A DNA stretch of 64,000 nt, from assembly GCA_021788095.1 (NCBI GenBank), contig JAJYLB010000006.1:1-64000 (forward strand), in the 5' to 3' direction. The stretch is from Acidobacteriota bacterium. Lineage in GTDB: Bacteria; Acidobacteriota; Terriglobia; Acidiferrales; UBA7541. This document shows, in pieces, positions 52,521 to 62,218 of the stretch (position 1 is its first letter; every line of letters starts with the position of its first letter). The notes under the pieces are model-generated. The model saw nothing but the letters and a program-made list of their open reading frames with translations, made no database searches and was not told the DNA's origin. The position numbers and the translations under genes are program-made.

Positions 52521-52567
52521 GCTCTCGCAAGTTGGCGGACGCGAAATGGCCGGCTCCGGAGGTTCAC

Positions 52568-55500
52568 GTGAGCCGTATCGCCCGCTGGGTTGTTTCTGCT
52601 GCTTCTCTTCTCGTGGTCCTGCTTATTCCTCCGCCCTGCGCCTTCGGACAAACGAAAACTCATACCTGGACTGCGCGTTTCGCCGCCTCCACGGCCATTC
52701 CCGGCGCCAAGCGCGTCGGAGCGCAGGTCTGCTCCACCTGTCACGCTCAGGAGGCGAAGGATTTCCAACATGCTTTCCACGCCCAGCAGGGCGTCGAGTG
52801 CGAGGACTGCCACGGCGCCGGGAGCCTGCACGTCCAAGGCGGCGGCGACGTCTCCAAAATCATCAGCTTTAGCCAACGCAGCGCCAAAGAGGCCAATGCC
52901 GCTTGCCTCAGCTGCCACGTTCAGGATGAGTCGGTGCGCCACTGGATGGCCGGGCCGCACGCCTCGAGTGGCGTGCGTTGCGCCGATTGCCACCAGGTGC
53001 ACGCGAACGCCGTGAAATCCGCCGAGCGGGGCGAGGCGCGATTCGATACATCCACGGAAGGAGCTCTCCAGGCTGCCGAGGTATCGCCGGAAACCAATGC
53101 GATCGTCGAGCCCATGGCGGAAACCAACGACGCCTGCCTGCGGTGTCATCAAAACGTGCGCGCGCAACTAAGCATGCCTTACCACCATCCCGTCCGCGAA
53201 GGGAAGATGAGCTGCGCCGATTGCCACGATCCGCATGGGGGTCCCGCGGGAAACAATCTCCGGACGTCGACCGTGAACCAGCTCTGCCTGCAATGCCACG
53301 CGCAATATCGCGGGCCTTTCGCTTACCAGCATCCTCCTGTCTCGGAAAACTGCACCCTCTGCCACACCCCCCACGGCTCGCCAAACACGAACATCTTGCA
53401 GGTCAGCGAACCGGCGCTCTGCCTCCAGTGCCATGCCGGCCACCACAACGGAGCGGGCTTACCCCTCACCGATCGCTGCACCGACTGCCATTCCTCGATC
53501 CACGGTACCGACGTTCCCACACCCAGCGGGGGCGCCCGATTCATAGACAAGGGACCTTCGGAACAGGCTCTGGTCTCCTCCAGCGGTTCGGGTTCACTCG
53601 CCAGCACGGCCGGCCGCGCGGCTGGCGCCATGTCTTCAAGGCTCCCGGGGGGCGCGTCCTTCGCGGCGACCGCCGTGAACGGTGCCGGCGGGCTGCTGGC
53701 GATGATGTCCACCCAATCGGGAGCGCCGCTTTCGGGCGGAAGCATGGAAATGGGAATGGGCGCTCCCACGGCCGCGGAAGGGGGAGGCTCGGCTTTCGCG
53801 GCTTTGTCGTTTACCCCTGGCGCGTATCGGTTTATCGATGCCACCGGCTTTGAAGGCCGCGTCGGCGAATACGATAGCTTGCAGCAATCGGCGGGCGCTG
53901 ATCTCTCGGCCGTCTACGTCTCCACGCTTCACCACCTCACCATCGTGTCCCACGCCCTCGTCTTGAGCGGCGCCGATTACGCCGCCGCTTCCCAGTTCAC
54001 CCTCGGGGATTGGCTCCAGGCGCAATTTTCCCAGCGCAGTTTCGTCCAAGAGCAGGATCACTATCCCTTCTACGCCTTCCCTGTCTTGGACATCCCCCCG
54101 GGCACCACGCAGCCCGCCGATACCTTCGACGATTCCATTGCGCCTGTCGGGCAAGCGGGCGGCGCCATTTTCGGAGTCCAGAGAAGGATGGGCAATGCCT
54201 ACGTCCGCGCCAAGCTGCCTTCCCTGCCAGTTCATGTGTTCGTGAAGGGCAATTGGCAAGACCGCGTGGGCACGACGCAACTCGGCTATCTCGACGAGAA
54301 CGATAATAACCTCGGCTGCGGCAACCAGTGCCACTACAGCTCCCAGTTCCAGCCGGTGAATTACACGACCCGCAATATCGCCGCCGGTGGTGAAATCAAT
54401 TGGCATGGTATCGATATCGCGGTCGAGCACGCCTTCAGCAGCTTCAACGATCGGCTGCCGTTCCCCGTGGGCGTCTTCCATGGCCCGTTCACGCCGTCTG
54501 TCGACCCGGGAGGCTTCTCCACAGCCCTGCCTCCGCCCTCCGGCCCCGCTCCTCCGGATATCCCGGCAGGCAATTACCCCATCGATCTCCCGTCGCCAAG
54601 CCGCGCGTCCACCGACAGCGTTGCCTTGAATTGGGTTCCTTCCGCCAGCTTGAACCTCAACGGCAACATCAGCTACATGCGCCTGCGCAACCTGTTTACG
54701 CGCTATCCGCAGAACATCCTCGATACCGACGAAACGGTGAACTGGAAGGCGGTCCGGAGGCTTCTGGTCACGCTCGATTATCATCAGATGAACCAGCTGA
54801 ACGACTTCACTCCCTACTACAGCCTTTTTGGAGATGTTTCCTATCGCAACCACTGGGAAGGTCTGCGCCTGGACTACCAACTGCTGAAAGACTTCGACCT
54901 GGAAACCTATTACCGCCGCAGCGGTATCACCCGCTCCAATGCCTTCCTCTGGCCCCAAGCCTATTCGTTCGACAATACCGATTTGTCCTACCTCGTGCCT
55001 TCTTCCTCCAGCAACACCACCGGCCTCGCGGTCCGCTACCATGACCGCGGGCTCTGGAGCGCCCGCGCCGGCGACGAATGCACGGGAACCCACGATCCGG
55101 GCTATTTGGTCGTCCCCCAGAGCAATAACCGGTCGTTCGCGGAGGTCACGCTCACACCCGTCGCCTGGCTCACGTTCGACAACGACACCAGCATTACCGT
55201 TCAGAATGCGTTCGCACACCCCTTTCTCCCGAACCAGCCGGGCGAGACGCCAACAGCCTTCCCCGGCCCGCAGCCGACGCCCCCTACCGGCCCAGGTCAG
55301 TTCCAGCGCCGCAACCGGTTCTACAATGAAACCGCTAGCTTCGGTTTCCCCATTCGCGCGTATTGGAACTCGTCTCTCGGCTACTCTTATCAACAAAACA
55401 ATCTCACCACTTTCATGGCGTTCCAAAACGATAGCGGCACCGGCTACCTAATCGATGAGCCGGCCGTCCCCTACAAGCAAATCACCCAGGCCTACTGGGC

Positions 55501-55873
55501 GGAATCGAATTACTCCTTCGCCAGCCGCTTCGGAATCGATCTCCAACTCACCTATAACTCCTCACGCAGCGGTTTCCGGCCCGATCTGAATCCGGCCGAC
55601 GCCGCGCTGCTCGGCAACTCGGAGTTGATGGCTTCGGGCGCTTTCAATCCGGCGCAGTTCGGCGCCGCCTTGGGCAACTTGCAGTACGCCTCGACCGTCA
55701 TCTCCCAGGTGATCGTTCCCCAATGGATCGGTCAATCGAAGGCGTACTATCAGTTCCCGTACAAGCTCGAGGGAGGTCTCCTCTTCGGCTACGGCAGCTA
55801 CAGGGACTATTTCAATCCCAGCCTGAATGGTGTGTTGCGGACTTTCAGCCTCTACCTCGGCCGCTCCTGGTAG
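52568..55873 (+). CDS. Fused decaheme cytochrome c-outer membrane porin (MtrA-MtrB-like)
   Basis: 1,101 residues from the GTG at 52568, behind GGAGGTTCAC; the earlier TTG at 52532 lacks a ribosome site. The signal peptide is ARWVVSAASLLVVLLIPPPC then AFGQ. Residues 55-308 hold exactly ten CXXCH heme sites (CSTCH, CEDCH, CLSCH, CADCH, CLRCH, CADCH, CLQCH, CTLCH, CLQCH, CTDCH), the count of MtrA/DmsE cytochromes. After a Gly/Ser-rich linker (about 310-395) the remaining 700 residues are amphipathic strands of an MtrB/PioB-like barrel, ending LRTFSLYLGRSW with a terminal aromatic residue. In known systems the two are separate proteins. No MtrC-type partner is adjacent. It would move electrons across the outer membrane. 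Confidence 0.88.
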   Translation: MSRIARWVVSAASLLVVLLIPPPCAFGQTKTHTWTARFAASTAIPGAKRVGAQVCSTCHAQEAKDFQHAFHAQQGVECEDCHGAGSLHVQGGGDVSKIISFSQRSAKEANAACLSCHVQDESVRHWMAGPHASSGVRCADCHQVHANAVKSAERGEARFDTSTEGALQAAEVSPETNAIVEPMAETNDACLRCHQNVRAQLSMPYHHPVREGKMSCADCHDPHGGPAGNNLRTSTVNQLCLQCHAQYRGPFAYQHPPVSENCTLCHTPHGSPNTNILQVSEPALCLQCHAGHHNGAGLPLTDRCTDCHSSIHGTDVPTPSGGARFIDKGPSEQALVSSSGSGSLASTAGRAAGAMSSRLPGGASFAATAVNGAGGLLAMMSTQSGAPLSGGSMEMGMGAPTAAEGGGSAFAALSFTPGAYRFIDATGFEGRVGEYDSLQQSAGADLSAVYVSTLHHLTIVSHALVLSGADYAAASQFTLGDWLQAQFSQRSFVQEQDHYPFYAFPVLDIPPGTTQPADTFDDSIAPVGQAGGAIFGVQRRMGNAYVRAKLPSLPVHVFVKGNWQDRVGTTQLGYLDENDNNLGCGNQCHYSSQFQPVNYTTRNIAAGGEINWHGIDIAVEHAFSSFNDRLPFPVGVFHGPFTPSVDPGGFSTALPPPSGPAPPDIPAGNYPIDLPSPSRASTDSVALNWVPSASLNLNGNISYMRLRNLFTRYPQNILDTDETVNWKAVRRLLVTLDYHQMNQLNDFTPYYSLFGDVSYRNHWEGLRLDYQLLKDFDLETYYRRSGITRSNAFLWPQAYSFDNTDLSYLVPSSSSNTTGLAVRYHDRGLWSARAGDECTGTHDPGYLVVPQSNNRSFAEVTLTPVAWLTFDNDTSITVQNAFAHPFLPNQPGETPTAFPGPQPTPPTGPGQFQRRNRFYNETASFGFPIRAYWNSSLGYSYQQNNLTTFMAFQNDSGTGYLIDEPAVPYKQITQAYWAESNYSFASRFGIDLQLTYNSSRSGFRPDLNPADAALLGNSELMASGAFNPAQFGAALGNLQYASTVISQVIVPQWIGQSKAYYQFPYKLEGGLLFGYGSYRDYFNPSLNGVLRTFSLYLGRSW

Positions 55874-58499: not shown

Positions 58500-59717
58500 T
58501 CAGCGCAGGGGAACCAGGCGCGCGCCGGCTTGGTTGTTGCCTTGATCGTCGAAGGAGATCGCGCCTGAAGCTCCCTCGAGTGCGCGCACGCTCGCGATTT
58601 GGTCGCGGACGCGGGCGCGATTCGGTCCCGCGGCGCGCACGGCGCGCGCGATCAGGCGAACCGCATCGTAAGCCTCGGCCGCTACGGCGCTCGGGAACGT
58701 TCCCGTCGCTGCCTGGTAGCGCCGAACGAAGCTGGCGCGCCACGCCGCTGCTGTCCCGCCGGGCTCAACGGTAGAGGCAGCCGTATTCGCCTTCGGTCCA
58801 TTTTCCTGCGCGAGGGACCCCGGAAACTCGATTCCCGAACTGGCTTGTGCGCTCTCCTGGGAGAGATAGACGGGGATGCTGTCTCCCGCCTGGCGAATCG
58901 CGCGCACAAGCTGGCCGGTAATTTGTGGCCGCGCCCAGAAGACCACGGCCTGTGCGGACGTTTTCCGAATCAGCGCCAGCAACGCTCCCGCCGCTGGCGG
59001 CTCGGGCCCGGCGACGAAGGGAATGGGCGCGGGAGCGCCTGCCTGACGAGCGGCTTTCTCGAATTCCGCCGCGCCCAGCCGTCCGTCATGATCGCTCTCG
59101 GCGACCAGGATGACTCGGCTGAATTTGCGCCGGAGATAGATATCCCGCGCGATCGCGTGCGCCGCGACCGTGTCGCTCGGTCCCAGGCGAAAGATCCAAG
59201 GCAGATTGATTTCCGTTGTGGTTGGATCGGTGGAAAGAGTCAGAACCGGCACGCCAATCTTGTTGCCGATTTGCTCGCTCAGGTGCGCCGACACCGCATC
59301 GGCGCTGGTCACCACCGCGATAGCATTCTCCTCCACAACCAAGTGGATGATTTCATCGCCGAAGGTTCCCCAAGGAGGAACGCTTTCGTCGGCCGTAGCG
59401 AGAGCCAAGCGGAGACCGCCGGGGAGCGGTTTGGCGGATTCATCCTTTAGTGCCATCCCCGCCGCGGTAAGGATCGCTTCGCCGTCCGCTCGCTGCGGCC
59501 CATGGAGCGGAGCCAAAACGCCGATACGCAGCACCGGACCCGGCAAATCGAAAGCCGCTTCCCTGCCCGGCCCCGCATACCTTGCGCCCTTCTCGGCAAG
59601 CGAGGCGTAGGGCGCGGGGGAGTGTTGCGCCTGCCCGCGCGCGAGGCCGGCCATCCCGGCGATGGCCAGCACGCTCGTTAAGGGAAGAAGCCGTCGGGAA
59701 AATGTGCCGCGTAGCAA
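58500..59717 (-). CDS. Periplasmic branched-chain-type ligand-binding protein 1
   Basis: About 405 residues from the TTG at 59717 (AAAGGA lies just before it; a longer reading from 59762 adds a basic stretch). The signal peptide is LLPLTSVLAIAGMAGLARGQ. A Peripla_BP_6 (LivJ-like) fold is seen: VLRIGVLAPLHGPQRADGEA, GVPVLTLSTDPTTTEINLPW, SRVILVAESDHDGRLGAAEF, VVFWARPQITGQLV, EAYDAVRLIARAVR. No permease or ATPase genes are near, so it is an orphan solute-binding protein. Repeats near 59745 and at 59811-59832 separate it from the second binding protein. Confidence 0.88.
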   Translation of the reverse strand: MLRGTFSRRLLPLTSVLAIAGMAGLARGQAQHSPAPYASLAEKGARYAGPGREAAFDLPGPVLRIGVLAPLHGPQRADGEAILTAAGMALKDESAKPLPGGLRLALATADESVPPWGTFGDEIIHLVVEENAIAVVTSADAVSAHLSEQIGNKIGVPVLTLSTDPTTTEINLPWIFRLGPSDTVAAHAIARDIYLRRKFSRVILVAESDHDGRLGAAEFEKAARQAGAPAPIPFVAGPEPPAAGALLALIRKTSAQAVVFWARPQITGQLVRAIRQAGDSIPVYLSQESAQASSGIEFPGSLAQENGPKANTAASTVEPGGTAAAWRASFVRRYQAATGTFPSAVAAEAYDAVRLIARAVRAAGPNRARVRDQIASVRALEGASGAISFDDQGNNQAGARLVPLR

Positions 59718-59810
59718 AATTATCCTTTCGCGTTTCGCCGCCCCGGTAGCACAGGCTCCCAAACCATCGGGACCTGCCTGGGCCAGGTTCGGTGAGGTCT
59801 CGGCGAAAGC

Positions 59811-59832
59811 GCACAGCCAGGAATGGCTGTGC
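59811..59832. repeat. Palindrome GCACAGCCA-GGAA-TGGCTGTGC
   Basis: Perfect 9-bp arms with a 4-base loop in the gap between the two binding-protein genes. A related GTAGCACAGGC lies at 59745. This hairpin type is a dispersed intergenic repeat. Confidence 0.65.
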
Positions 59833-59942
59833 TACCAAAAGCCCTCGGTGCGCCTCCCAGCCGTCGGCTACGACCACCCTCGGGTACCATCCGGTCCTTG
59901 CAAATCTTCGCGACCTCGGAACCTGAGCGGCGGGTTCGTTCC

Positions 59943-61286
59943 TCACTTCATGAAAGCCGGCTCCTTGCCTTTCCAGTCCGTTCGCCGCTCAGGCCAGTAG
60001 ACGAAATGGCCGTCTTTCACCGTGGCGAAGGTGACGGGCGCGATGTTGTTGAGCGTGTAGTCGAAGAAGGCGGTCCCACTCACCCCTTCGTACCGCTTCA
60101 TCTCGTATCCGCGCAAGGCGTCCATGATTCGCGCGCGATTGAGGCCTGCCTGGCGTATCGCCGCGATCAGGATGTTCATACCGTCATAGGCGTAGCTCGC
60201 GTAGGCGTCGGGCTCGGTGTGGAAACGCGCCACGTAATGCCGGCGAAACGCCTGCCAGCGGGGATCGCTGCGGTCGGGATCCATGGCCGCGATCGCTACG
60301 AACCCGTTGGCGGCCGGCCCGGCGATTTTCAGCATCTCGGGGTAGACCACGCGGCTGCCGCCAAAAACCGGTTGTCGCATCCCCATGGCGCGCATCTGCT
60401 TCAAAATCCTGCCAGCTTCCCCGGCATCACCCCAAATGACCAGGCCGTCGAGACCCAGCGTTTTAAGCGTATCGAGTTGCAGGGAAAAGTCCGTCGCTCC
60501 CGGTGCGTACTTTTCCATCACTACCGGTGGAAACCCCATGCGCCTCGCGGCGTTGAAAAATTCCTCGGTGCCCCGGCGGCCGTAGCGGTTGGTGGTGCGC
60601 AGGATGCCGACGTGCCGGAGCTTCCTCTGATTGAAGATGTAGTCGGCCAGGGCATAGCCTTGCTGGCGATCGTCGGGGAAGTTGTGCAGCAGCCACTGTA
60701 TCCGCGTCTCCGTCACCGTGGGATCGTTGGTGGCCGTATCGACGATCGGCAGCTCGATTTTCAATGCGGCGCGCAACTCGATGTGGGTGGAAGCCGAGTC
60801 CACCGAGCCCAGCATGCCCCAGGCGTGCTGGTCGTACCGCATGCGCACAATCTCCATCGACGAGGCGCCCCAGAGCGGCAGATCGTCGTGAATCTCGAGC
60901 GCGAAGGGCTTCCCGCGGTATCCGCCGCCGGCGTTGGCCTCGGCAATCGCCAGTTGCGCGCCGTGAAGCATCGGAATGCCGTACTGCGAATCGGGATTGT
61001 CCGCATCGAGCGGGCCCAGGAACCCGATATTGATGGCGCGCAAGCTGCTCAATAGGGGGTCGGGCTCGAGGCGCGCGGAGCCATCGTACGCCATCGTATT
61101 CGGCTGGACGTACCACTCGTAATACGGCTTCCGGAATCGGCCGTAGGGCACCGCCGCTTTCGGCATGTTCGCGTAAGGCATCGCCACAGGCGGCGCGCTG
61201 GCGCCCTTTTGCGGCGGGGCGGTTTGCGACCATGCCGGCGAGGCCAGCAGAAAAAGCGCGATTGTCGCGGCACTTGCTCCTCTCAT
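59943..61286 (-). CDS. Periplasmic branched-chain-type ligand-binding protein 2
   Basis: 447 residues from the ATG at 61286, the first start that directly precedes the signal peptide (RGASAATIALFLLASPAWSQ). A Peripla_BP_6 fold: INIGFLGPLDADNPDSQYGI, GAQLAIAEANAGGGYRGKPF, IVDTATNDPTVTETRIQWLL, HVGILRTTNRYGRRGTEEFF, GLDGLVIWGDAGEAGRILKQ, YASYAYDGMNILIAAIRQAG. An N-terminal extension (PYYEWYVQPNTMAYDGSARL) resembles the ends of quinone- or redox-linked proteins, so it might serve a sensor. It is co-directional with and 26 bases downstream of DAHP synthase 2. Confidence 0.88.
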   Translation of the reverse strand: MRGASAATIALFLLASPAWSQTAPPQKGASAPPVAMPYANMPKAAVPYGRFRKPYYEWYVQPNTMAYDGSARLEPDPLLSSLRAINIGFLGPLDADNPDSQYGIPMLHGAQLAIAEANAGGGYRGKPFALEIHDDLPLWGASSMEIVRMRYDQHAWGMLGSVDSASTHIELRAALKIELPIVDTATNDPTVTETRIQWLLHNFPDDRQQGYALADYIFNQRKLRHVGILRTTNRYGRRGTEEFFNAARRMGFPPVVMEKYAPGATDFSLQLDTLKTLGLDGLVIWGDAGEAGRILKQMRAMGMRQPVFGGSRVVYPEMLKIAGPAANGFVAIAAMDPDRSDPRWQAFRRHYVARFHTEPDAYASYAYDGMNILIAAIRQAGLNRARIMDALRGYEMKRYEGVSGTAFFDYTLNNIAPVTFATVKDGHFVYWPERRTDWKGKEPAFMK

Positions 61287-61312
61287 CGCCTGTTCTCTCC
61301 CTTCACCGCCCC

Positions 61313-62218
61313 TTACCGAGCCGAAAGCGCCAGGGTCACTTTCCCTGCCACGGTTTCCTCCCGGTGCCTCACAAACCGGATGATTCGCCGGAGCGTCTGC
61401 GGATCGATCGCCTGTTCCGCATCGCACCGCGGGCACGTCCCGCTCGCGCAGGTTTCCGCCACCTCGAGAATCAAGCCGTCGCTGCCGAATTCCATGGCGC
61501 CGCGGCTCGCCAGCTCCACCATCGAGCGGACTCCCGTGCCGTGGCTGGGATCGACGATCACCGGGAGAAAGGTGAGTTCATGGACCGCCGGGATCACATT
61601 CAGGTCCAAGGAAAACCGCGCGTACTCGCCCGAAGGAAACGCCCTGATTCCCCGTTCGCAGAGAACGATATCGAGGTTCCCTTCCTTGGCGATGTACTCC
61701 GCCGCGCCCAGCCACTCGCACAGGCTCGCCGCCATGCCCCGCTTCAGCAGCACCGGTTTGCCCGATCGCCCGGCTTCGACCAGCAGCGGATAATTCTGCA
61801 TGCTCCGCGAGCCGATCTGCAGCATGTCGGCGTAGAGGGCCACCTGCTCCACCAGCCGGACGTCGATCACCTCCGTCACCACCGGCAATCCCGTTTCGTC
61901 CCCCACCGCGCGCAGAATCTTCAGACCTTCGATTCCCAATCCCTGGAAATCATGCGGCGAGGTCCGCGGCTTGAACGCGCCGCCGCGCAGCATGTCCGCG
62001 CCGGCCTCCTTGGCGATGCGCGCCAGATCGAGCGTCTGCTCTTCGTTTTCAACGGCGCAAGGCCCGGCAATCACCACGGCCAATCCGGCGCCGAATCGCG
62101 CGCCTTGCACTTCGACCACTTTGCGCCCCATGGTTCCGTACGCGGGGTTCGTCTGCCGGCAAAGCAGCGGGCAAATCCGCGGCAGATCATCCAGGGTCAC
62201 TTTTCCGGCGATCTTCAT
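61313..62218 (-). CDS. DAHP synthase-like enzyme 2, no regulatory domain, extra cysteines
   Basis: 301 residues, a type I-beta DAHP synthase barrel: [93 protein letters not shown]. Metal ligands Cys, His, Glu and Asp appear kept. There is no ferredoxin-like domain, but two unusual cysteine clusters occur: CPLLC near residue 16, and CASGTCPRC where relatives have HPxPExAxSDG. These might bind zinc or an Fe-S cluster. It lies 36 bases after ridA-like and may feed a special pathway. Confidence 0.9.
   Translation of the reverse strand: MKIAGKVTLDDLPRICPLLCRQTNPAYGTMGRKVVEVQGARFGAGLAVVIAGPCAVENEEQTLDLARIAKEAGADMLRGGAFKPRTSPHDFQGLGIEGLKILRAVGDETGLPVVTEVIDVRLVEQVALYADMLQIGSRSMQNYPLLVEAGRSGKPVLLKRGMAASLCEWLGAAEYIAKEGNLDIVLCERGIRAFPSGEYARFSLDLNVIPAVHELTFLPVIVDPSHGTGVRSMVELASRGAMEFGSDGLILEVAETCASGTCPRCDAEQAIDPQTLRRIIRFVRHREETVAGKVTLALSAR

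Follow-up and report, generated by a model that had tools for sequence, protein, structure and literature searches.

The window analysed here, a stretch of 64,000 nucleotides, carries on its forward strand a single gene (52568..55873, +) in which a decaheme cytochrome and a porin are fused in one frame of 1,101 amino acids plus stop. The frame opens with GTG, with GGAGG lying 5 nt upstream, and an alternative TTG start is present further upstream at 52532. Residues 1–28 (52568..52651, +; VSRIARWVVSAASLLVVLLIPPPCAFGQ) read from the sequence as a signal peptide, and homologues are hydrophobic at the same N-terminal place. The genes on either side are unrelated to the fusion: a Ser/Thr kinase and an Smr-domain protein upstream on the reverse strand, and an ICMT/PEMT-like methyltransferase (a weak match), a glyoxalase-like and a DinB-like protein downstream on the forward strand. 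Beyond the downstream flank, two adjoining genes for Peripla_BP_6 periplasmic binding proteins occupy 58500–61436 (−). Across the 30 loci compared, several of them shortened by contig ends, no conserved gene neighbourhood was found. In one genome only (G045), a seven-heme protein of 391 amino acids is encoded directly upstream of a fusion (L038:7372-8547, equivalent to L091:6960-8135).

The N-terminal half (residues 29–320; 52652..53527, +) is a cytochrome domain of the MtrA/DmsE/GSU2203 type by its profile scores and its match to a solved structure. It carries ten CXXCH heme-attachment motifs (52730..53491, +), beginning at residues 55, 78, 113, 138, 190, 216, 240, 262, 285 and 304 and ending at His 308, in agreement with the count and the span of residues 55–308 given in a preliminary description of this DNA. 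As no CXXCH occurs in any other stop-to-stop frame longer than 60 codons on either strand of the window, ten within 254 residues cannot be put down to chance. The profile TIGR03508 (DmsE/MtrA decaheme cytochromes) scores 208.9 bits, above its curated cut-off of 192.2, and NF041028 (the GSU2203 family) scores 243 bits, below its cut-off of 325 yet the best of any family. The domain also matches the solved MtrA (6r2q_A) with an E value of 7.9e-39; the molecule name printed for that match can evidently be read as a label from deposition, 6R2Q being the entry of the Mtr complex. All ten motif histidines and at least ten further histidines are fully conserved in the 26 aligned fusions (26/26), and the additional residues are candidate distal ligands, a pattern compatible with bis-histidine hemes. 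AlphaFold2 left this half unfolded in a model of the whole protein (pLDDT below 50), so the plugged geometry considered below is drawn from homology.

Linker and barrel

Between heme 10 and the barrel lies a linker (residues 309–413; 53492..53806, +) whose first ~20 residues (SSIHGTDVPTPSGGARFIDKG) are conserved, forming the block SIHGxDVxTPSGGSRFVDKG that closes the cytochrome part, and whose remainder is variable and rich in Ala, Gly, Ser, Pro and Thr. In the 26 fusions the linker covers 101–152 amino acids between heme 10 and the onset of the conserved barrel block, with those five residues making up about 60%.

The C-terminal half (residues 414–1101; 53807..55870, +) is predicted to form an outer-membrane β-barrel of the MtrB fold. 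In the whole-protein AlphaFold2 model (mean pLDDT 53), well-predicted strands run from residue 443 onward, and the barrel modelled alone (pLDDT 66, pTM 0.56) has 25 long strands and one uncertain first strand; the two models contain 25–26 antiparallel strands, mostly at pLDDT of about 70–94. MtrB (6r2q_B) is the top Foldseek match for both (E 4.3e-15 and 1.6e-14), with runners-up at 8.3e-9 and 5.5e-7, a lead of at least six orders of magnitude, and with TM-scores of 0.51/0.54 it is the sole listed Foldseek match to exceed 0.5 on both lengths. VIA alignments to MtrB reach Z scores of 16.3 over 509 residues and 16.2 over 437, values tied with those of other large barrels although the MtrB alignment is the longest or near-longest, so that this comparison of models does not exclude other barrel families beside MtrB. 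The barrel-like remainder and aromatic end noted in the preliminary description are thus borne out by a predicted strand number within the 22–28 envisaged there, by MtrB as the leading structural match, and by a C-terminal Trp 1101.

Profile comparisons place the barrel more precisely. NF041027, the GSU2204 family, was matched by all 11 member barrels tested, the best at 1.9e-22 and still under the cut-off; the window protein scores 29–31 bits against a curated cut-off of 350, and by these scores the fusion barrel is a relative of the GSU2204 family that lies outside the family as curated. No PDB sequence was matched when the barrel was searched by profile. Pfam MtrB_PioB (PF11854) did not match the window barrel and matched two of 11 relatives weakly (best E 0.004). 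The kinship to MtrB/PioB barrels proposed at the outset stands through the MtrB-like GSU2204 family, which took in 11 of 11 barrels, and is weak, at 2 of 11, where the Pfam family is concerned.

A heme-type motif in the barrel

The count of ten CXXCH sites is complete for the cytochrome half; what it missed is a CX3CH motif, CGNQCH, in the barrel (residues 584–589; 54317..54334, +), which brings the protein to eleven heme-type motifs. None of the 26 fusions departs from Cys 588 and His 589, and all carry either CXXCH or CX3CH here; that the motif can vary by one residue in length and remain of a heme-attachment type speaks for selection to bind heme. No distal ligand was identified for the predicted eleventh heme. 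The strands of the AlphaFold2 models are joined by long loops and tight turns in alternation, and the motif sits at the end of a long loop; the long loops, and with them this motif, should in these models face the extracellular side.

The same motif aligns with a CXXCH in GSU2204-type barrels (hhalign: 597 columns, probability 99.7, E 1.1e-25), an alignment that makes a fused porin–cytochrome of the GSU2203–GSU2204 type the best description of the protein. The motif is missing from the two-gene barrels that ordinary MtrAB-like operons encode in related genomes. We considered the motif as exclusive to the fusion clade and rejected this, because GSU2204-type barrels of other Acidobacteriota classes carry CXXCH. 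The fusion thereby directs attention to a heme motif within the barrel protein that is common to GSU2204-type barrels, and that might provide a surface exit heme.

The GSU2204-type genes of those other classes (L122–L150) have a peculiarity of their own: in 25 of the 29 loci the frame stops at a TGA, past which it continues in frame for 137–150 codons to an aromatic, barrel-like end. This in-frame TGA, which the fused proteins lack, is probably read as selenocysteine, in keeping with NF041027 being annotated for selenoproteins.

Distribution and origin of the fusion

Queried with the barrel only, 14 of 399 sampled genomes of the class contain relatives, and in 11 the fusion is intact; of the other three, one has two separate genes (G143), one has the gene split over contig ends (G026), and in the third it is internally deleted (G167). 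The last is a decayed copy (G167:C51, L059) in which the cytochrome N-terminus is followed, after the large deletion, by ~95 residues from the C-terminal end of the barrel. When 84,980 species were scanned with short patterns, which distant relatives would escape, 29 loci were returned, every one from Acidobacteriota by record title, with 24 intact fusions; of the remaining five, one (L088) is a fusion truncated where its contig stops, three (L069, L086 and L087, the last with runs of N) have broken frames, and one (L085) is a barrel truncated in the same way. L091 and L092 duplicate contigs of the class survey, those of G045 and G004; separately, two genomes carry two copies each. Among 396 genomes of the phylum, full-length matches in a single frame are restricted to the class.

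Both halves are conserved among the 26 aligned fusions. The survey meets the expectation that relatives would share the join and excludes an error of assembly as its source. Same-frame gene pairs separated by one stop codon do exist in some relatives, as in G003, and an error could join such a pair; set against this, the fusion recurs in dozens of independent assemblies, joined through the same conserved motif and lacking a second signal peptide, and we give an artificial joining of two adjacent genes during assembly or sequencing a vanishingly small probability.

Two genomes show what an unfused relative looks like. In both G143, from the same class, and G498, from another family outside it, the cytochrome is encoded separately and closes with GGS[KV]FIDK..., and the barrel gene specifies a signal peptide of its own. 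A tree of the cytochromes puts the fused sequences in one group (support 93/86) next to G143 and G498, within a clade supported at 100/99; an earlier tree gave the same grouping. The branch of G498 is long. A single fusion event in Acidobacteriota, starting from a two-gene operon and kept thereafter, is the most likely history on these relationships, and the simplest route would be for a stop codon and the second signal peptide to have been lost. The ease with which a fusion of this kind can come about is illustrated by an MtrA–barrel pair in G003 (G003:C32, L039:8108-11896), whose two genes share one frame and are separated by just one stop codon. Frames listed at 1275 and 1006 in G003 and G046 looked at first like further fusions and were rejected as separate frames, that of G003 being this pair.

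A putative one-polypeptide conduit

Taken together, these features suggest, with a probability of roughly 0.8, that the gene encodes a porin–cytochrome conduit in one polypeptide, consisting of a secreted decaheme cytochrome, a linker and a barrel with an extra heme motif. Once the protein has been secreted and its hemes attached, the barrel would insert into the outer membrane round its own cytochrome, which would cross the membrane as in MtrAB, with heme 1 periplasmic and heme 10 near the surface; electrons could then move between periplasmic carriers and extracellular partners such as Fe(III)/Fe(II) or humics. Heme 11, placed in an extracellular loop near heme 10, would be the likely surface exit site, in which case the conduit would work without MtrC.

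The preliminary description had remarked on the lack of MtrC nearby, and this holds beyond the window, where the cytochrome is the only frame with CXXCH: the window genome (4.24 Mb, 93.5% complete) contains no match to the OmcA/MtrC family (TIGR03507). With no conserved neighbours either, the conduit appears self-contained at its outer end. Two more decaheme cytochrome genes are present on other contigs of the same genome (G000:C74:140478-141488 and G000:C87:20107-20886; L035 and L036), each preceding a separate barrel gene of ~900 amino acids, and several further multiheme genes lie close to the cytochrome gene on C74.

The direction of electron flow is less firmly indicated, with export in anaerobic respiration slightly favoured. 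Import, for example in Fe(II) oxidation, is a possible reading of somewhat lower standing: PioAB and MtoAB, both homologous to MtrAB, carry electrons inward (PMC6831781, PMC10734462), the known fused cytochrome–porin Cyc2 is an iron oxidase, and a peat or permafrost origin is on record for some relatives. Quinol-driven export, by contrast, would suit the two ordinary MtrA–barrel pairs of the genome and the NapC/NrfH-type protein encoded near one of them, although neither line of argument fixes the direction for this protein.

How the two halves are tied together is the main mechanistic question that the fusion raises. The N-terminus of an outer-membrane barrel is expected in the periplasm. The C-terminus of MtrA points outward in the solved complex (PMC7198977), so that the linker would have either to thread back through the lumen to the periplasm or to be cleaved after assembly. 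Full covalent closure, an eleven-heme wire with the cytochrome enclosed by its own barrel, the linker returning through the lumen and heme 11 taking the place of MtrC, is a tentative proposal that we would put a little short of even odds. A precursor cut in the linker after secretion would instead yield a separate cytochrome and barrel resembling MtrAB, with fusion serving equal dosage and co-delivery only. This would fit the variable composition of the linker, the awkwardness of permanently tying an outward-pointing C-terminus to a periplasmic barrel N-terminus, and the two-gene sister forms of G143 and G498. We think it unlikely, however, as ~100 residues are long enough for a return through the barrel, and inspection of the linkers by eye reveals no consistent signal-peptidase-like site, their hydrophobic stretch being weak (17-residue mean Kyte–Doolittle 0.9–1.8). 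We also considered that this weakly hydrophobic stretch may be a leftover of the barrel's old signal peptide.

Against known systems, the reading of the gene as an MtrA/MtrB-type cytochrome–barrel fusion holds, with one amendment: its closest two-gene kin are GSU2203/GSU2204-type pairs, MtrAB and PioAB being more distant. Those pairs (NF041028, and NF041027 for a CXXCH-containing (seleno)protein) likewise combine a decaheme cytochrome with an MtrB-like barrel bearing one aligned CXXCH, but comprise two genes and barrels mostly with the in-frame TGA, and the fusions fall under both NCBIfam cut-offs. Shewanella MtrAB (6R2Q) shares the MtrA-homologous cytochrome and a barrel of ~26 strands, whereas it consists of two proteins plus MtrC and its barrel is 10–13% identical in sequence to that of the fusion. 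As the 20 hemes of the solved Mtr complex are divided equally, ten each, between MtrA and MtrC (PMC7198977), MtrB is without heme, unlike the motif-bearing barrel of the fusion. PioAB and MtoAB are also conduits of a porin and a decaheme cytochrome with a core that lacks MtrC, but are encoded by separate genes, and fusion barrels are weak against Pfam MtrB_PioB. Cyc2 and Cyc572 do join cytochrome and porin on one polypeptide (PMC10734462, PMC9040806), though with one heme and a barrel of ~17 strands (PMC10654088), where the fusion has ten plus one heme motifs and a barrel of MtrB size.

A survey of MtrCAB found separate genes in the clusters of Acidobacteriia (PMC8805035), and a peat metagenome study notes acidobacterial decaheme cytochromes, the parts of it consulted making no mention of a barrel fusion (PMC3669403). 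We found no fused MtrAB in the literature searched, a scope that leaves out all preprints and most subscription journals, so that a prior description is possible; within it, decaheme conduits (MtrAB, PioAB, MtoAB) consist of at least two proteins, and the fused Cyc2 and Cyc572 have one heme. A conduit encoded by a single gene would be a simpler target for structural work and for the transfer of extracellular electron transfer to other hosts, and the fusion points toward extracellular electron transfer in abundant, little-studied Acidobacteriota of soil and peat.
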